Source: Kangiella geojedonensis (GTDB taxonomy: Bacteria; Pseudomonadota; Gammaproteobacteria; Enterobacterales; Kangiellaceae). From it: DNA of 64,000 bases. The notes under the pieces are model-generated. The model saw only the letters and a list, made by a program, of their open reading frames with translations. It did not search any database and was not told where the DNA came from. The translations under genes and the position numbers were made by a program. This document shows, piece by piece, positions 1,841 through 62,567 of this stretch (position 1 is the first letter of the stretch; each line of letters opens with the position of its first letter). The stretch covers positions 2,232,001-2,296,000 of the forward strand of contig NZ_CP010975.1 in assembly GCF_000981765.1 (NCBI RefSeq). Direction: 5' to 3'.

Positions 1841-3776
1841 TGTTGCTCTCCTCGTCAGTGCTTGCTGTCTCAGCCTGGTTAACCTTTAAAACCTCTAACA
1901 AATAATAATCCATAATTTCGCGAGCTAAAGGCGCAGCGTTAGAACCACCGCCACCAGCGTTTTCCATCATTACTGCCAACGCAATCTTCGGCTGTTCAAA
2001 AGGAGCGTAACCGATAAATAGGGCATTATCATGGAATTTTTCTGCTATTTTTGTGGCATCGTACTCTTCGTCTTGAGCAATACTCTTAACCTGAGCCGTG
2101 CCCGTTTTACCCGCAGCAACATATTCAGCGTCAGTAAAAGCACTGCGAGCCGTGCCTCGTGGGGGCTCTGTCACTTTTTTCATGCTGTCTTTAACTAGGT
2201 CGAGCCAACTACCATCGCTGGTGTCGATTTGATGATATGCCATCACTGGGGTATTGGCCTCGAAGCGATTATCCTGAGCAAACTCTTTAACCAATTGTAA
2301 GTTATAACGAATGCCATCGTTAGCTAATACAGCGGTGGCATTGGCTAACTGCAGCGGCGTCACCGTCCAGAAGCCCTGACCAATACCAATATTCACCGTA
2401 TCTCCATTATACCAAGGCTCTCCGCGAGCGGACTTTTTCCAATCTCGCGACGGCATGATGCCCACTTTTTCCTCAACAATATCGATACCAGTTTTTTGGC
2501 CAAAGCCAAACTGCTTCATGCCATCATAAATGTTGTTAATTCCTAAACGAACAGAGAGGTCATAGAAAAACGTATCACACGACTCAACAATCGCCTGCAT
2601 CACACCAACCGTGGCACCATGCCCCCATGCTTTCCAGTCCCGATAACGGTGATCATTATTCGGGAGCGAGAACCAACCTGGATCAGCAATTCGTGTACTT
2701 GGCGTAATAACCCCTTCTTTTAATCCTAAAAATGCTAAATGAGGTTTAATGGTAGACGCTGGCGGATAGGTCCCTTGAACCGCACGGTTATACAAAGGAC
2801 GTTCAGGAGTTAGTAGCTTTTGATAATCTTCGCTAGAAATGCCACCCGTGAACATATTAGGGTCGTAAGACGGCTCACTGACCATGGCTAATACACCGCC
2901 TGTGGATGGCTCAACCGCAACCACCGCGCCACGTGCGCCGTTTTCTTTCATCAACTGAGTAATTTTCTGCTGCAAGCCTAGATGCAAATATAGATGTAGG
3001 TCTTCCCCGGCTTGTGGCTCTTCTCGCTCCAGAACCCTGACGATCCTGCCACGCACGTCAGTTTCTACCTTCTCACTGCCAACCTCACCATGAAGCCGAT
3101 TTTCATAGAAGCGCTCTAAACCCAGCTTACCCATTTTGCCCGTGGCAGCGTAACGTTGACGGGTAGTACCCACTTCCTTCTTTTCCCTGACATCTTTTTC
3201 GTCCATCCGAACCAGATCATCTTGGGTAATCGCACCCATGCGGCCCAAAACATGAACTAAGCTCGCAGCATAGGGGTAATACCGCTCTAATCGAGCTTCG
3301 ACACTAACACCCGCGAAGAAATGTTGGTTAGCGGAAAAGATGGCGACTTCTTGTTCATTCAGATTGGTTTTGATGGCGTAAGAATTAAACTTCGGGCGAA
3401 ACTTCACTTGCTCCAAAAATTTGTCCACTTGCTCATCAGTGATATCAAACATCTGGCGCAAGCGCTCTACGGTGTCATCCATATCATCGACTTGCTCAGG
3501 AACAATTTCTAAAGCAAAGATTGAGCGGTTTTGCGCGAGTAACTTCCCCGTTTGGTCATAAATAAGCCCACGGACCGGTGCGATAGGCTGGACTCGGATA
3601 CGATTATTTTCCGATTGGGTTTGGTATTTGTTGTGGTCAATGACTTGTAACTTAAACTCACGAGCAATGAGAAAAATCATTAAGCCAATAACAATAGCTA
3701 GCGCGATCACGCAACGGACGAAAAACAAAGAGGTTTCTCGGCCAACGTCTTTTATGGCTTCGCGTCGTTTTAGCAT
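1824..3776 (-). CDS. mrdA: Penicillin-binding protein 2, elongasome transpeptidase
   Basis: Monofunctional class B PBP that cross-links peptidoglycan during rod elongation. A single N-terminal membrane helix (about residues 18-38) is followed by the PBP dimerisation domain and the transpeptidase domain. The active-site motifs are S341-T-I-K (nucleophile Ser341), S399-C-D and K557-T-G-T. At 650 aa it is slightly longer than E. coli PBP2 (633). The tail is rich in Glu, Asn and Ala. The gene overlaps rodA and sits 66 bases after rlmH, as in the conserved rlmH-mrdA-rodA order. Confidence 0.97.
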
Positions 3777-3842
3777 AACAAATGATTAAACCATTGCTTA
3801 GGTTTTTGTTTCACATCAACTACTTATCATTATTCACGGAGA

Positions 3843-4313
3843 TTATTCTCGATGATACGGATGGTTCACCGTCACTGACCAGGCTCGATACAAAGATTCC
3901 GCAATAATCACTCGAACCATAGGATGCGGAAAGGTAAGGTTCGATAAAGACACTTTCTGGTTCGCTCGTTCAATACAAGCTGGCGCTAAGCCCTCAGGAC
4001 CGCCCACAAAAAACACCACACTCGGGTGATGCTGTTGCCAATGTTCGATTTGCTGCGCAAGCTGAGGCGTTGATAGCTGCTTACCCTTCACATCTAAAGC
4101 AATGACCCAGTCAGCACTCGAAACGTGGGACAGCATGGCTTCGCCTTCTTTATCCGTTAACCGTGTAATATCAGCATTCTTTCCGCGTTTGACCGCTGGA
4201 ACCTCGATCAGTTCCAGTTGAAAATCTCTGGGAAAACGACGGGCATACTCATTATACCCCTGCTCAACCCAGCTAGGCATTTTTTGACCGACCGTGATTA
4301 AGCGCAGCTGCAT
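3843..4313 (-). CDS. rlmH: 23S rRNA pseudouridine-1915 N3-methyltransferase RlmH
   Basis: SPOUT-class methyltransferase that uses S-adenosylmethionine to methylate pseudouridine 1915 in helix 69 of 23S rRNA on 70S ribosomes. It is 156 aa, the usual length. The knotted SAM-binding region is visible as [13 protein letters not shown] and [22 protein letters not shown], and the protein ends NHPYHRE, typical of the family. ATG at 4313; 18 bases after rsfS. Confidence 0.97.
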
Positions 4314-4331
4314 GGAGTTACGTCAGAATAG

Positions 4332-4676
4332 TTATTGAGAGCGTGCGTCTTTCCAATTAGGATCCCACAACTTTTCAAGCTGATAAAAGTCGCGAGTTTG
4401 CGCCAGCATGATATGCACCACGACATCGCCTAAATCGACCAAAACCCACTCAGAAACATCATCACCTTCAACACCGAGCGGTTGAATGCCTTGATCCTTC
4501 ATTTCACTAACTAAGTTATGCGCCACAGACTTCACATGACGATTAGAAGTACCGCTAGCAACCACCATATAATCGGTGACTGTACTCAATTCTTTAACAT
4601 CTAACACGCTGATTTCTTTAGCTTTTAGGTCTTCCAGTTGCTCAACAACAACATTCTTTAATTGCTCGACTTGCAT
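4332..4676 (-). CDS. rsfS: Ribosome silencing factor RsfS
   Basis: Binds ribosomal protein uL14 on the 50S subunit and blocks subunit joining when nutrients fall. It is 114 aa with the Iojap/RsfS signature: TVTDYMVVASGTSNRHVKS near residues 32-50 and DVVVHIMLAQTRDFYQLEKLW near the end. It lies 8 bases after nadD and 18 bases before rlmH, inside the conserved nadD-rsfS-rlmH block. Confidence 0.96.
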   Translation of the reverse strand: MQVEQLKNVVVEQLEDLKAKEISVLDVKELSTVTDYMVVASGTSNRHVKSVAHNLVSEMKDQGIQPLGVEGDDVSEWVLVDLGDVVVHIMLAQTRDFYQLEKLWDPNWKDARSQ

Positions 4677-4684
4677 TAATTACC

Positions 4685-5371
4685 TTAACTCTTAGGGTTT
4701 AAGCCATATAGGCCATGCTGATTTATGTACTCTAGTATACCATCTGGCAATAAAAATCGGGGTGAAAACCCTTGATTTATTTGCTCTCGGATATAGGTCG
4801 ATGAAATATCCAATTGCGGCATCTGGCAAAAGCCGACTTTACCAAAGCTATGTTGCGGCAAAGACTCAAGATCTTCTATAGCAAAGTTCTGGTAAAACTC
4901 CGCCACTTCACCCTCAGTCGGCAACTGACTGCTAGGACGTCCGACAACCAGAATGTTAGTCAGCTTTATCAACTCCTGCCATTGATACCATTCATTGAGC
5001 TTTGCGAACGCATCCGTACCCATTAGAAAGACTAGGCAAGCATCACCAACACCTTTTTGCTCAAGTTCGTGGCGAATTTCACGCAAGGTTACGACGCTAT
5101 AGCTTGGCTCTTTGCGCTGCAACTCGCGGTTATCGACGGTTAACTGAGGATATTTACCCGCCACCAACTGCAACATTTCAATTCGTTGTTGTGGCGAAGC
5201 GCCCGGTTGTGGTCGGTGGGGTGGATAGGCTGCTGGCATCAAAGAAATCTTTGCTGTTGGAAAGCGGTTCAACATTTCCTGGGTCATGCGAAGGTGCCCA
5301 AAGTGAACCGGGTCGAAAGTTCCGCCTAACACTATATGCATCGCTTTTTTGCCGTTAGTGCTCACTGACAT
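4685..5371 (-). CDS. nadD: Nicotinate-nucleotide adenylyltransferase NadD
   Basis: Transfers AMP from ATP to nicotinate mononucleotide in NAD synthesis. The nucleotidyltransferase motif GGTFDPVHFGH is at residues 16-26 (HxGH at 23-26), GTDAF at about 118, and the C-terminal ISSTYIR at about 189-195. I start at the ATG at 5371, which overlaps the holA stop as TGATG. A TTG one codon upstream and a second ATG ten codons downstream (MHIVLGG) are alternatives; the downstream one gives the family's usual N-terminus but has no visible ribosome site. Coupled to holA. Confidence 0.94.
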   Translation of the reverse strand: MSVSTNGKKAMHIVLGGTFDPVHFGHLRMTQEMLNRFPTAKISLMPAAYPPHRPQPGASPQQRIEMLQLVAGKYPQLTVDNRELQRKEPSYSVVTLREIRHELEQKGVGDACLVFLMGTDAFAKLNEWYQWQELIKLTNILVVGRPSSQLPTEGEVAEFYQNFAIEDLESLPQHSFGKVGFCQMPQLDISSTYIREQINQGFSPRFLLPDGILEYINQHGLYGLNPKS

Positions 5372-6471
5372 CAAGACATCCCAAAAGCTTTCTTAATATC
5401 ATTCAAACCATCCGTTGCGGCTTGCGATGGCTTTTGACTGCCACCCTTTTGCCCCCCAGCTTGAGTTTTTTTGGCTCTGAAAGGATTAACACCAGCGATT
5501 AAGCACACCACGTAAGACAACTCTTGCCACGCATCGACGTCGGCTTGCCCTTTAACCCCTTTATCAATCATGGTTAAGCGCTGGATCATGGCATACCATT
5601 TTTTGACGCTTCCTTTACTTAAAGCTACCTGTAGCACTTTTTGCTTCTTGGGCCACACACGGTTGGCTTTGAAGATCTCAGGTATTGGTGTTCCAGCAGC
5701 AATGTCTTCAGACCATTTGGCTAAGTTTTGGCACTCACGAAGTAACTGATTAACCACAGGCAAAGGATAAGTTCCTTCAGCCTCAATGCTGGCTAACATG
5801 CGCAAAGCACGGTCCGCTTGTCCTGCCAAACAAGCATCACCCAACTCAAAGGTCGAGTAACGAGCATTTTCGCCAACATACTCACGCATACTATCGCCGC
5901 TAATCACGTTACCTTCGGCGAGTAGCGATAACATTTGTAAATCTTGGTGCGCCGCCAGCAAGTTACCTTCACAACGCTCAATCAGAACTTGTACCGCATC
6001 ATTGTCGAGTTGCACGTTAAGCTGAGTCGCGCGTTGACGTAGCCAGCCGCCAAGCCTTTCCGCTGGAATAGGCCAAACTTCAACCACGATGCCAGCTTGC
6101 TCTAAAGTTTTAAACCATGAGGTACGTTTTTCGTTAGATAGCTTGGGGGCAATGATAAGCAGCACATCTGTCGGTTGACTATTGATAAAGCTTTGTATGG
6201 CTTCGCCTTGAGCTTTTTTAATGGATTTATCAAAGCGCCACTCCAGCAATCGAGTTTCAGCGAACAGAGACATGGTACCAGCTTGATCGGTCAGCGGATT
6301 CGCAGCACTTGAATCTTCAATAATTTGGCGCTCTAAAATGCCCTGCTTTTTGCAATGGGCGCGGATCTGGTCGGCGGCTTCCATTTTTTGCCAAGGCTCA
6401 TCGCCAGCAACGAGATAGACTGGAAAACTTTGAGTAAGTGCTTGCTGTAATTTTTCTGGATAAACTTTCAC
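5371..6471 (-). CDS. holA: DNA polymerase III subunit delta
   Basis: Delta subunit of the clamp loader; it opens the beta sliding clamp. 366 aa. It starts with GTG (6471), giving MKVYPEKLQQAL, which aligns with E. coli HolA MIRLYPEQL, so GTG is preferred over later codons. The N-terminal AAA+-like fold lacks a working Walker A, as expected for delta, and the C-terminal helical collar domain is normal. The extreme C-terminus has a Gln/Gly/Lys-rich segment not needed for the fold. Gene order lptE-holA-nadD is conserved. Confidence 0.94.
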   Translation of the reverse strand: MKVYPEKLQQALTQSFPVYLVAGDEPWQKMEAADQIRAHCKKQGILERQIIEDSSAANPLTDQAGTMSLFAETRLLEWRFDKSIKKAQGEAIQSFINSQPTDVLLIIAPKLSNEKRTSWFKTLEQAGIVVEVWPIPAERLGGWLRQRATQLNVQLDNDAVQVLIERCEGNLLAAHQDLQMLSLLAEGNVISGDSMREYVGENARYSTFELGDACLAGQADRALRMLASIEAEGTYPLPVVNQLLRECQNLAKWSEDIAAGTPIPEIFKANRVWPKKQKVLQVALSKGSVKKWYAMIQRLTMIDKGVKGQADVDAWQELSYVVCLIAGVNPFRAKKTQAGGQKGGSQKPSQAATDGLNDIKKAFGMS

Positions 6472-59099: not shown

Positions 59100-60047
59100 T
59101 TAGAGGCTCTCTAGGCGTTGATACAAGGGCTTATCAACGGAATAATCTGGATAAACTTGTTTGAATTTTAACCACTGCTCCTTGGTTTCTGCTTTTTTAT
59201 CCGCGTCTAACAATGAATTTATCTGTTTTAACCATTCTTCAGCCGGTAAATAGGGGGGGGCTGCGACTTCTCGTTCTCCTTGATAGGATTCAGCGTCATT
59301 GTCTGAATAATTGAGATCATCTGTTGTCTCAGTCGCTTTGACACGAGAGCCCGTCACTACGATTCGCTCCACATCGCTCGTCGCATTGTCCATGTCAGCG
59401 TCGTTACTCGCAAATGACTGCTGCTCCTCCGCTCGCTCAGCTAGCTCGGAGAACGGGGCTTCAACAATCGCCTGTTGCTCTTCAAGCACCAATGGCTCAG
59501 CTGACGACGCACTCATAATTTGTAGCTGGCTTATTTGCTCGGCTTCCTCTCTTTTCACACGCGCTCCAGTTACCGCCACTTTTTTCATGGCGTTAGCTTG
59601 CGCTTCTGCTTTTTGTCGTGCGGCCAAACGCTCCTCGGCCATCACCTCTGGTGACGCTTTAGCTGGAGCTGAAACCACTGGCTTTTGGTCAGAAGTGTCA
59701 TCACTAAAAACGACAATACTCTCTTTAGATTCAATGGCTTGCGTCATATTCTCAGAATCAGCAATAGAATTAGGATGATAATAACCTAGCTCAACCATAA
59801 AGCGTGCGATACCAACGGTCACCACAAAGGCCGCAGTTACCGATACCGGTAACTTCAGTCGATCCCACCAGCTGCGCTTGCTTGACACTTTTTCACGAGT
59901 ACCTACTTCTTGCTGAGCCATAGCCATAATAGAAGCATCCAGCGCCGACGACGTGGTCTCATCGCTGGCCTCTTTATAGGCCTTGCTCAACTTTTCAGCG
60001 TCTTGCTCGACTATTTTGTCATGCTCATTATTCATATCGTTACTCAT
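59100..60047 (-). CDS. Putative anti-sigma factor with two TonB-box-like motifs
   Basis: 315 aa. Overlaps the upstream ECF sigma gene by 4 bases (ATGA), the classic sigma/anti-sigma arrangement. Residues 1-64 cytosolic, one membrane helix about 66-84, the rest periplasmic. It contains KKVAVTGARV (155-164) and ERIVVTGSRV (227-236), which look like TonB-box or plug-leader sequences of outer-membrane receptors. The C-terminal AEEWLKQINSLLDADKK and YPDYSV match a tail common in proteins encoded after ECF sigma genes. No classical zinc anti-sigma motif, so sigma binding is inferred. Confidence 0.7.
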   Translation of the reverse strand: MSNDMNNEHDKIVEQDAEKLSKAYKEASDETTSSALDASIMAMAQQEVGTREKVSSKRSWWDRLKLPVSVTAAFVVTVGIARFMVELGYYHPNSIADSENMTQAIESKESIVVFSDDTSDQKPVVSAPAKASPEVMAEERLAARQKAEAQANAMKKVAVTGARVKREEAEQISQLQIMSASSAEPLVLEEQQAIVEAPFSELAERAEEQQSFASNDADMDNATSDVERIVVTGSRVKATETTDDLNYSDNDAESYQGEREVAAPPYLPAEEWLKQINSLLDADKKAETKEQWLKFKQVYPDYSVDKPLYQRLESL

Positions 60048-60760
60048 GATGTGACCTCAGGATTCTTATCCAGATCACGTAAACAGTGCTTCAGCTTATC
60101 CATGCCATACCGTAATCGGCTTTTTACTGCCTCTGGGTTTTCCTGCACAATTTCAGCAATATCATTAATCGTCATACCGGTTTCAAGCTTCATTACCACC
60201 ACCTCTCGCTGTAACGCTGGCAGTTTTTCGATAGCACTCCGAAATAATTGTTTCGAGCGCTCCAGCTCAAGCTTCTGATCGGGTGTAGCGTCACTTCCAC
60301 TGCTCGTACTCTCTTCCCAGCCCTCACAGTCCTGTGTAAATTCCTGCTGGCGGCCTTGGCTACGATAGTGGTCAATCAGTCGAGTACGACCAATATGATA
60401 TAAGTATGTGGTGAATTTAGCAGAACTTTTATAAGTCTTACTATGCTTGATAAGACGTTGCCAAGTCTCTTGAAACAGCTCTTCGGCTTCACTCTTATCG
60501 CTTACTTGTCGCAAAAAAAAGCGTAGTAGCGGGTCTTTGTGGCGACGATACAAAGTCTCAAAAGCCTGCATATTGCCCGAAGCAAAGCCAGCCATTAAAG
60601 CTTCATCGCTAATGACTGGCTCTTGGTCCCGACTATTTGAGTTGCTGTAATTTGCGCTTTCTTTCAACACCGCAGCCTTTGCATCATCGTAATAGGTTAA
60701 TTTAACCTCTTTATAGTGACCGCTGGCTTGGTTTTGTGCAAGCGCCTTTGTTAACGCCAT
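60044..60760 (-). CDS. ECF-family RNA polymerase sigma factor
   Basis: 238 aa. Region 2 at about 66-133 (FETLYRRHKDPLLRFFLR, EELFQETWQRLI) and region 4 at about 165-230 (LPALQREVVVMKLETGMTINDIAEI). It has an N-terminal extension of about 50 residues without a known domain; a later start would shorten it, but no better ribosome site was seen. It sits between a vWA lipoprotein and the putative anti-sigma gene. Confidence 0.9.
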   Translation of the reverse strand: MALTKALAQNQASGHYKEVKLTYYDDAKAAVLKESANYSNSNSRDQEPVISDEALMAGFASGNMQAFETLYRRHKDPLLRFFLRQVSDKSEAEELFQETWQRLIKHSKTYKSSAKFTTYLYHIGRTRLIDHYRSQGRQQEFTQDCEGWEESTSSGSDATPDQKLELERSKQLFRSAIEKLPALQREVVVMKLETGMTINDIAEIVQENPEAVKSRLRYGMDKLKHCLRDLDKNPEVTS

Positions 60761-60791
60761 TCAGTAAGCCTCTAAGCTACTGGACTCTAAG

Positions 60792-62567
60792 CTACTGACT
60801 CGCAACAGCCGTTTTTTCATCCAACAACTGGGCCATGCCAACTAGCTGAATCAACTCACCGCGATAGCCATCAAGATCATCACCTTTCGAGGCTTGAGCC
60901 AGTGACCTAGCATCGTCCCAGCCCCAATCGCCTAAGAATTGCCCACCACGTAACAATTGTGCAAATCCTGCCACACTCGCTGCAAAGCGAATGTTATCAC
61001 CACCTTTTGCTGCCTCAACATCACTTAACTGTAGATAATCACGGTACAAAGTGCTTTTGTCTTCATCGGGCAACTTATAGCGCAGGCTTATCATCGCAGC
61101 CTCACTCAACTTGGCGTTTTTTTCATGCATGGCCTCTTCGCGCTTACCGCCACCATAACGCAAAGGCTCCATCCGTTTGCCATCAGAGTCTTGCAACACA
61201 ATTTCATACAAGGCGGTAACCGTATGTCCGGCTCCAATTTCACCCGCATCAACCTTGTCGTTGTTAAAGTCTTCGCGTTCTAGCATTCGGTTTTGATATC
61301 CCAGCAAGCGATACTCAGCAACAACCGCAGGATTAAACTCGACTTGAATTTTGACGTCTTTAGCAATCGTCATTAAAGTTCCAGCTCTTTGATCCACCAG
61401 TAACCTTTTTGCTTCTAATAAGCTATCAATATAACCGTAATTACCATTTCCTTTGTTCGCCAACTGCTCCATCAAATGCTCATTATAGTTTCCTGAGCCA
61501 AAGCCTAAGGCACTGAAACTAATACCGGTTTTACGTTTACGTTCAATCATGTCAATCAGTTGTTCGCGATTTACCGTACCAACGTTAAAGTCACCGTCAG
61601 TCGCCAGAATAACTCGGTTAATACCATCCTTGATAAAACCTTTCTGCGCCATTTTGTAAGCCAACTCTATTCCAGCACCACCATTCGTCGAACCACCAGC
61701 GGTTAGACTATCCAGCGCTTGCTCAATCTTAAGCCGATCATTCGCTGCCGTGGGTTCAAGCACCACACCAGAAGCTCCCGCGTAAACCACCAAAGAAATC
61801 TTATCTTCTTTGCGACTGCCTTTAGCTAACATTTTTAAGGCTTTCTTGACCAAACCAAGCTTGTCCGCACTCTGCATTGAACCCGACACATCAACTAAAA
61901 ACACGAGATTTGAAGGAGGCAGTTCTTCGGACTGTTCTTCGTAGCCTTTAATACCGATTTGTACCAAGTGGGCATTATCGTTCCATGGCGCCTTCATCGC
62001 TTCTGTAGATACCGAGAATGGCATCTCTTGGCTATCTGGAGTTGGGTAGTCATAATTGAAGTAATTAACAAATTCTTCTAAGCGAACCGCATCATTCGGT
62101 GGAAAATACCCATCGTTTAACATTCGGCGTACATTGGAGTAAGCTCCTGTGTCGACATCAATACTGAAAGTCGATACAGGCTGTTCCAGCGTTAAAAACA
62201 CGTCCGAAGGCTCTATTTTTTGGTACTGCTCACGATTGACCACATTCAATTGTCGAGGTGCAGGCATCATGACCTTTTCAGGTTGTGCGAAAGCCATATC
62301 CGACATAGTTACTCGAGAGCCCGTCACCATAATGCGCTCCGCTTCTTCCGCCACACGCTTCTCTTTACGCAGGACATGGCTCGCCTCAAGCTGTTTTGCC
62401 TCACGTTTCTTTTGTTCAGCAGATTCTAACGGTTCATTGGCGACCACTGAGGATGTGCTTCGGTCACTTTCTTGATCATGTGAACTTTGGCAGGCTCCTA
62501 AGCCGACGATAACCATACTCGCGATAAGACCATACTTGAACGTTTGACCCTTTCTAGTGATATTCAT
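60792..62567 (-). CDS. von Willebrand factor A lipoprotein (YfbK-like)
   Basis: 591 aa from the ATG at 62567, preferred because AAAGGAG precedes it and the signal peptide follows at once; an upstream in-frame start adds 12 residues. Lipobox LGAC with Cys26. A Lys/Glu-rich linker leads to ERIMVTGSRV (77-86), then a vWF-N-terminal domain (about 115-215), a vWA domain with an intact MIDAS (D226-V-S-G-S, plus later Thr and Asp in ATDGDF), and a C-terminal DUF3520-like region. E. coli YfbK is similar. Co-directional with the ECF sigma gene 31 bases downstream. Confidence 0.87.
   Translation of the reverse strand: MNITRKGQTFKYGLIASMVIVGLGACQSSHDQESDRSTSSVVANEPLESAEQKKREAKQLEASHVLRKEKRVAEEAERIMVTGSRVTMSDMAFAQPEKVMMPAPRQLNVVNREQYQKIEPSDVFLTLEQPVSTFSIDVDTGAYSNVRRMLNDGYFPPNDAVRLEEFVNYFNYDYPTPDSQEMPFSVSTEAMKAPWNDNAHLVQIGIKGYEEQSEELPPSNLVFLVDVSGSMQSADKLGLVKKALKMLAKGSRKEDKISLVVYAGASGVVLEPTAANDRLKIEQALDSLTAGGSTNGGAGIELAYKMAQKGFIKDGINRVILATDGDFNVGTVNREQLIDMIERKRKTGISFSALGFGSGNYNEHLMEQLANKGNGNYGYIDSLLEAKRLLVDQRAGTLMTIAKDVKIQVEFNPAVVAEYRLLGYQNRMLEREDFNNDKVDAGEIGAGHTVTALYEIVLQDSDGKRMEPLRYGGGKREEAMHEKNAKLSEAAMISLRYKLPDEDKSTLYRDYLQLSDVEAAKGGDNIRFAASVAGFAQLLRGGQFLGDWGWDDARSLAQASKGDDLDGYRGELIQLVGMAQLLDEKTAVASQ

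Follow-up and report, generated by a model that had tools for sequence, protein, structure and literature searches.

Can a TonB box serve a protein that is not a receptor? The question is raised by a locus of Kangiella geojedonensis (contig NZ_CP010975.1 of assembly GCF_000981765.1, positions 2,232,001 to 2,296,000; this whole stretch of 64,000 nucleotides is the window referred to below). Three genes there run in the same direction on the minus strand and encode a YfbK-type von Willebrand factor A (vWA) lipoprotein, an extracytoplasmic function (ECF) sigma factor, and a putative single-pass anti-sigma protein. A first-pass annotation had marked three copies of (E/K)(R/K)(I/V)xVTG(S/A)RV in the two proteins encoded on either side of the sigma factor gene and had likened them to TonB boxes; all three are present, each inside a long open frame. 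TonB is established as pulling receptors and imported toxins. We propose that barrel-less TonB-box proteins may here be wired to TonB-type partners in ECF signaling, a reading whose binding and force steps we infer and which we hold to be evenly balanced between right and wrong.

Motif occurrence and likeness to receptor TonB boxes

The motif [IVLMA][VI]TG[SA]R[VIL] occurs three times in the window's 93 frames of at least 100 amino acids, against 0.008 expected by residue shuffling; for the vWA and anti-sigma proteins alone, shuffling expects 0.00015. At the DNA level, a VTG-x-R pattern showed no excess over the whole genome (44 matches versus 51 for the reversed pattern), so that the argument depends on reading frame, context, and conservation. 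A longer DNA-level pattern, summed over 20 genomes of the genus, gave 141 matches versus 95 for its control. Among the loci fetched from the K. geojedonensis genome, in-frame VTG[SAT]R, with V, I, L, M, A, T, or K required before the motif, was found in three receptor TonB boxes, the three window copies, and one DUF4139-like protein. An eighth site, in an 87-amino-acid frame, was judged spurious. VITASR matched one receptor and one unrelated 309-amino-acid frame.

This genome has 11 matches to Plug, and three of its receptors start the plug with AERIVVTGSRL, AESIVVTGSRI, and AETMIVTGTRV. A profile was made from 12 box/plug-start windows of receptors in the genus, the loci having been picked via VTG-type patterns or the Plug family; a match to the core of the profile is thus partly circular, whereas one that extends as far as the plug start is free of this problem. 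Scores above the best of 4000 shuffles were obtained for 34 of the genus's 40 vWA and anti-sigma sequences (the misses being anti-sigma L228, L229, and L242 and vWA L237, L240, and L242). The window anti-sigma protein scored 16.2 bits and the window vWA protein 15.8 bits, with 8.3 bits for the best shuffle. The longest likenesses extend well past the core: the L231 anti-sigma protein matched over 31 residues, box and plug start included, at 41.7 bits, and L236 over 34 residues at 37.1 bits. These comparisons support the motif as a TonB box by sequence, one that matches the genus's own receptors by profile as well as by eye, and on this point the first-pass annotation stands.

Its view that the carriers are not receptors also holds. 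Pfam found no Plug match and no beta-barrel family in the three window proteins, no STN signaling domain in any of the three, and neither an STN nor a TonB-like C-terminal domain of the VreA kind. The vWA protein has vWF_A, VWA, and YfbK_C in that order, the YfbK type, all three above the curated cut-off. Between the two carriers lies an ECF sigma gene, as annotated; its 238-amino-acid product has regions 2 and 4 only (Sigma70_r2 and r4 in Pfam, sigma70-ECF in NCBIfam). The 315-amino-acid protein showed no known anti-sigma domain and no family at the curated cut-off in Pfam and NCBIfam, and its anti-sigma role is putative, suggested by overlap with the sigma gene, topology, and neighbors. The motifs fall in low-complexity linkers, namely, the stretch from lipobox to vWF_A and the part of the anti-sigma protein beyond the membrane span.

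Conservation within the genus

The vWA, sigma, and anti-sigma proteins occur together in loci of the genus, and in 20 genomes the box is far better conserved than its surroundings (3.77 bits per column versus 1.44 for the flanks in the anti-sigma protein; 3.42 versus 1.68 and 1.59 in the vWA protein). A uniform motif finds the box in 20 of 20 anti-sigma proteins (0.33 expected) and 17 of 20 vWA proteins (0.25 expected). A narrower version, which had overlooked boxes such as MVTGSR and EVTGSR (11 of 20 genus vWA proteins, 6 of 49 in the phylum set described below), was widened and the shuffles were rerun. By eye, 19 of the 20 vWA proteins keep the box, with L238 and L240 carrying altered forms.

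The vWA box and the second anti-sigma box of the window have the DNA GTGACGGGCTCTCG in common. Gene conversion between boxes was considered and dropped, because synonymous box codons across the genus are no more alike within genomes (23 of 98 comparisons) than between them (459 of 1752).

Distribution in Proteobacteria

Conservation does not extend to all orthologues, and an earlier notion that it might was rejected. At the level of the order, vWA loci outside the genus gave a box in 3 of 23 cases (L058, L066, and L071; 0.14 expected). The class sample of 30 loci, the thirtieth of which is K. geojedonensis itself (L103), contains a box-like EEVIATGRI in L088 that falls outside the uniform motif. 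Among the 49 vWA proteins of the phylum set, 9 have the box (0.41 expected), all from three further families, f208, f209, and f236, where it was found in 9 of 14 hand-picked loci. A plug-start-like stretch is kept in the vWA proteins of two of these, L292 (EIVVNGSRIRRDPANAPTPLVQVEREALLASGQ) and L303. No sigma gene was found in the stretches fetched around the f208, f209, and f236 vWA genes, which favors a general partner for these boxes, such as TonB.

On a tree of 107 proteobacterial cores, which includes 6 of the 20 genus members, the box label needs 7 changes, at least 6 of them forced by starred branches, compared to a mean of 17 for shuffled labels. Since most other sampled proteobacterial loci are without the motif, the box is a lineage-specific, optional, and repeatedly gained addition to an older operon, not part of the operon's core. 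The number of receptors was tried as an explanation and rejected: in the 50 genomes tested, every one with a box by the uniform motif has 11 or more Plug matches, but those without a box have from 0 to 71, so that many receptors are not sufficient for a box.

Where the box occurs, does it occur in both proteins? Of 20 further loci outside the genus, 12 gave an open reading frame (ORF) directly after the sigma gene. Among these 12 gammaproteobacterial loci, L243 had the box in both proteins, and the remaining 11 had it in neither. These 20 loci, 20 regions of the phylum set, and 9 regions with long vWA proteins were hand-picked rather than random.

In L256, the gene after the sigma gene (3559-5853, minus strand) encodes a single long protein that combines a hydrophobic span, a box-like LEEVIATGRI, and vWA domains. 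Of 9 further long vWA proteins, 8 are likewise encoded immediately after an ECF sigma gene, which indicates that vWA proteins and sigma control belong together. The proteins of L256, L331 to L336, L338, and L339, with a short N terminus, a hydrophobic span, and vWA domains, look like anti-sigma/vWA fusions. Homology of the N termini of the long vWA proteins to those of the split anti-sigma proteins was unsupported: the nine fusions scored between -1.2 and 5.4 bits, with 12.9 for the best shuffle, and hhalign gave a probability of 12.6.

Bacteroidota and relatives

A genome scan gave at least 593 vWA loci, and the best 80 were examined; they are mostly from Bacteroidota with a few from other phyla and, as the query alignment was headed by an extension-bearing Bacteroides protein, they sample the phylum with a bias. 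CarboxypepD_reg_2, the SusC-type extension, was recognized in 70 of the 80 and Plug in 9. The uniform motif finds the box in 39 of all 80 proteins (3.13 expected); another motif finds it in 38 of 71 anchored proteins (0.54 expected), a count that leaves out the 9 without an anchor. The Bacteroides finegoldii and Bernardetia plasmid matches illustrate the arrangement, in which a vWA protein with a CarboxypepD_reg domain continues into ALEECVVVGYG or GLEEVVVTGY. Of the 80 loci, 42 showed a sigma gene, and in 38 of these it is divergent from the vWA gene. By eye, the vWA proteins of L195, L197, L206, L208, L210, L221, and L223 have a plug-end-like segment shortly before vWF_A (for example, SALYGSQGSNGVIIVTTKG in L208).

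The ORFs that follow these sigma genes gave an anti-sigma set of 27 out of 31, with L150, L183, L207, and L211 excluded as short after trimming to the first Met. Within it, 21 proteins have CarboxypepD_reg_2 and 20 have TonB_C, with a strict box in 16 (0.35 expected) and a loose box in 23 (3.9 expected). The profile of the set matches SusC homologues over the extension and box (2.8e-26) and TonB over the C terminus (3.9e-7); all 17 of its PDB matches are SusC-type receptors or TonB, and TonB_C adjoins the box in the alignment. Receptor-side and motor-side elements of TonB coupling are thus combined in one anti-sigma protein. One ORF after a sigma gene, L193:3922-4887 (plus strand), has a C terminus that by eye resembles the last part of a SusC plug (EKYGEKGKKGVVIITTKTG).

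The first-pass annotation had proposed looking for the motif in other vWA-sigma-anti-sigma operons. The Bacteroidota pair carries boxes of the SusC type, and L243 has the box, but the other 11 gammaproteobacterial anti-sigma ORFs do not.

Features of the locus, other carriers, and possible partners

The coordinates are collected in Table 1. The most probable start of the vWA gene is the ATG at 62567, which follows AGGAG, rather than the TTG of the listed frame.

Table 1. Features of the three-gene locus (window positions) and a further box carrier in the same genome
Feature	Position	Strand	Basis
vWA (YfbK-type) lipoprotein gene, 591 amino acids	60792..62567	-	Pfam vWF_A, VWA, YfbK_C; ATG with AGGAG upstream
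Lipobox LGAC, vWA residues 23-26	62490..62501	-	Sequence reading, without signal-peptide program
TonB box of vWA protein, ERIMVTGSRV	62310..62339	-	Sequence, receptor-box profile
vWF_A domain (PF12450), residues 110-203	61959..62240	-	Pfam
VWA domain (PF00092), residues 220-377	61437..61910	-	Pfam
YfbK_C domain (PF12034), residues 396-580	60828..61382	-	Pfam
ECF sigma factor, 238 amino acids	60044..60760	-	Pfam Sigma70_r2 and r4; NCBIfam sigma70-ECF
Putative anti-sigma protein, 315 amino acids; start overlaps sigma stop by 4 bases	59100..60047	-	Sequence
One membrane span at about residues 66-88, preceded by basic residues	59784..59852	-	Sequence reading, without topology program
Anti-sigma TonB box 1, KKVAVTGARV	59556..59585	-	Sequence, profile
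Anti-sigma TonB box 2, ERIVVTGSRV	59340..59369	-	Sequence, profile
DUF4139-like protein with box in hypervariable loop	L021:810-2375, near G000:C1:1033101	-	

The DUF4139-like protein of K. geojedonensis carries ERIVVTGSRV in a variable loop and scores 30.6 bits for DUF4139, just under the cut-off of 31.8. Other DUF4139-like proteins of the genus show partial look-alikes, such as PRVMASRV. In another genus member, a DUF2135/TPR protein (L140:543-3020, minus strand) has GERIVVTGSRIS in a linker and is a further non-receptor carrier.

Possible partners exist in the cell, as seven TonB_C matches were found in the K. geojedonensis genome, two of them in proteins that read as ordinary TonB-like proteins (L340 and L341). 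A membrane-sensor-like protein of the same genome also carries a TonB C-terminal domain (L342:103-1728, plus strand; G000:C1:683766); its sequence reads like that of a BlaR1/M56-type sensor.

Discussion

We propose that the motifs are TonB boxes lying in low-complexity periplasmic linkers of two non-receptor proteins from one operon. The vWA lipoprotein is probably in the outer membrane and the anti-sigma protein in the inner membrane; these locations, like the ECF and anti-sigma roles, are assigned from sequence and gene order. A TonB-type C-terminal domain would bind the box by strand addition, as it does in receptors. The most likely partner would be the cell's own TonB, and in Bacteroidota the TonB-type domain of the anti-sigma protein itself may be another candidate. 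Binding or pulling might alter the vWA protein or expose the anti-sigma protein to proteolysis, perhaps as in FoxR, and the sigma factor would then be released. Such an operon would signal the state of the envelope or of TonB with no beta-barrel receptor involved.

The nearest known systems are the TonB-dependent transducers and VreA. FecA/FecR/FecI and FoxA/FoxR/FoxI share with this locus an ECF sigma factor, a single-pass anti-sigma protein, and a TonB box in the signaling chain, and TonB binds the FoxA box through strand addition (PMC11637429). In those systems, however, the box is in a 22-strand receptor whose STN domain contacts the anti-sigma protein, whereas here there is no barrel and the anti-sigma protein carries the box itself. 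VreA/VreR/VreI (PUMA3) of Pseudomonas aeruginosa resembles the proposed system in sigma signaling through a barrel-less partner, which in that case bears a TolA/TonB-like C-terminal domain (PMC2729926). VreA, though, is a small STN and TonB-like protein with its predicted box in a helix, while a vWA protein takes the partner's place here and its box is a standard one; the TonB-like domain of the Bacteroidota systems resides in the anti-sigma protein.

Other likenesses concern single elements. The SusC-type receptor Bt1763 of Bacteroides thetaiotaomicron has a CarboxypepD_reg extension followed by the box DEVVVTG, in keeping with the profile match given above, and normal growth on levan is lost when the residues VDEVVV of this box are deleted or replaced (PMC7782687). 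The difference from SusC lies in the missing barrel, a Plug recognized in only 9 of 80 proteins, and fusion to a vWA protein or to an anti-sigma/TonB_C protein. Inner-membrane-tethered vWA force transducers beside TolQ/TolR-like motors have a vWA fold likened to YfbK and belong to envelope force systems (PMC12204202), but they are motor-side transducers, and the vWA protein here would be on the box-bearing client side. That 2025 study calls the function of related inner-membrane vWA proteins unknown, and the terms "TonB box" and "sigma factor" are absent from its main text. Colicins have a functional TonB box outside receptors (PMC11658791); they are imported toxins, whereas the vWA and anti-sigma proteins are resident signaling proteins. 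In a literature search that covered mostly titles and the starts of abstracts, with few subscription papers, no TonB boxes in vWA or anti-sigma proteins were described.

Several observations weigh against wiring to TonB-type partners. The first-pass annotation had named orthologous operons without the motif as grounds for giving it up, and in part such operons are what we see: most proteobacterial orthologues sampled have no box, among them 20 of 23 order-level vWA loci, all 29 loci of the class sample other than K. geojedonensis (one of which, L097, lacks its N terminus), and 11 of the 12 anti-sigma ORFs that could be read in other genera. In the genomes of L066 and L071 (L249 and L252), the surroundings of the box-bearing vWA gene showed neither a sigma nor an anti-sigma gene. 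Even within the genus, the L242 vWA protein has no box, altered copies read VVGSR, VAGSR, TSGSR, and TTGSR, and the DUF4139 loop has the box in just 4 of 19 members (L312, L319, L328, and L330, K. geojedonensis included). Finally, Pfam found no TonB C-terminal domain in the window anti-sigma protein.

One can envision a stronger version, in which the TonB motor would pull the vWA lipoprotein and the anti-sigma protein directly via genuine boxes, making a receptor-free sigma switch that reads envelope mechanics or TonB load. The wiring would have arisen several times by grafting local receptor N termini onto an older vWA-sigma-anti-sigma operon, and the Bacteroidota anti-sigma protein would have become a TonB-like transducer. 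We offer this tentatively, and doubt it more than we believe it.

The box might instead be a passive remnant, with linkers captured by recombination from receptor genes, or worn-down receptor N termini, in which it no longer has a function. Plug pieces of varying length in the vWA proteins would fit such an origin, as would the patchiness of the box on the tree and its scarcity in the DUF4139 loops. Nevertheless, the genus keeps it in all 20 anti-sigma and 19 of 20 vWA proteins despite diverged flanks and scrambled synonymous codons, and the 12 readable loci outside the genus have it in both proteins or in neither; a remnant seems unlikely to us.

Docking in trans would do without TonB altogether: the vWA box would bind the TonB-type domain of the Bacteroidota anti-sigma protein, in competition with that protein's own box. 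Of the 27 anti-sigma proteins of this mostly Bacteroidota set, 20 carry TonB_C, which adjoins a box in the alignment, and the vWA and sigma/anti-sigma genes are neighbors, usually divergent. The window anti-sigma protein, however, has no such domain to offer, and the f208, f209, and f236 boxes point to a general partner, which leaves docking a doubtful explanation for the boxes as a whole.

It is improbable, in our judgment, that the motif binds a different component of the envelope, for instance a protease or assembly factor, and resembles a TonB box only superficially. Low-complexity linkers, where VTGSR is found, are places in which many short motifs act; yet within the genus the resemblance to the genus's receptors continues past the box as far as the plug start, and the Bacteroidota boxes are accompanied by the SusC N-terminal extension. 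This argument covers the genus and the Bacteroidota. Chance resemblance, to which the DNA-level count not exceeding its reversed control might seem to point, is hardly credible and already refuted by conservation, given three copies where 0.008 are expected in the window, retention across the genus, and recurrence elsewhere.

If working boxes are indeed present in resident vWA and anti-sigma proteins, the TonB motor would drive, or be read by, signaling that imports nothing. A possible role for a widespread vWA family would follow, and the annotation of TonB-box proteins would change.

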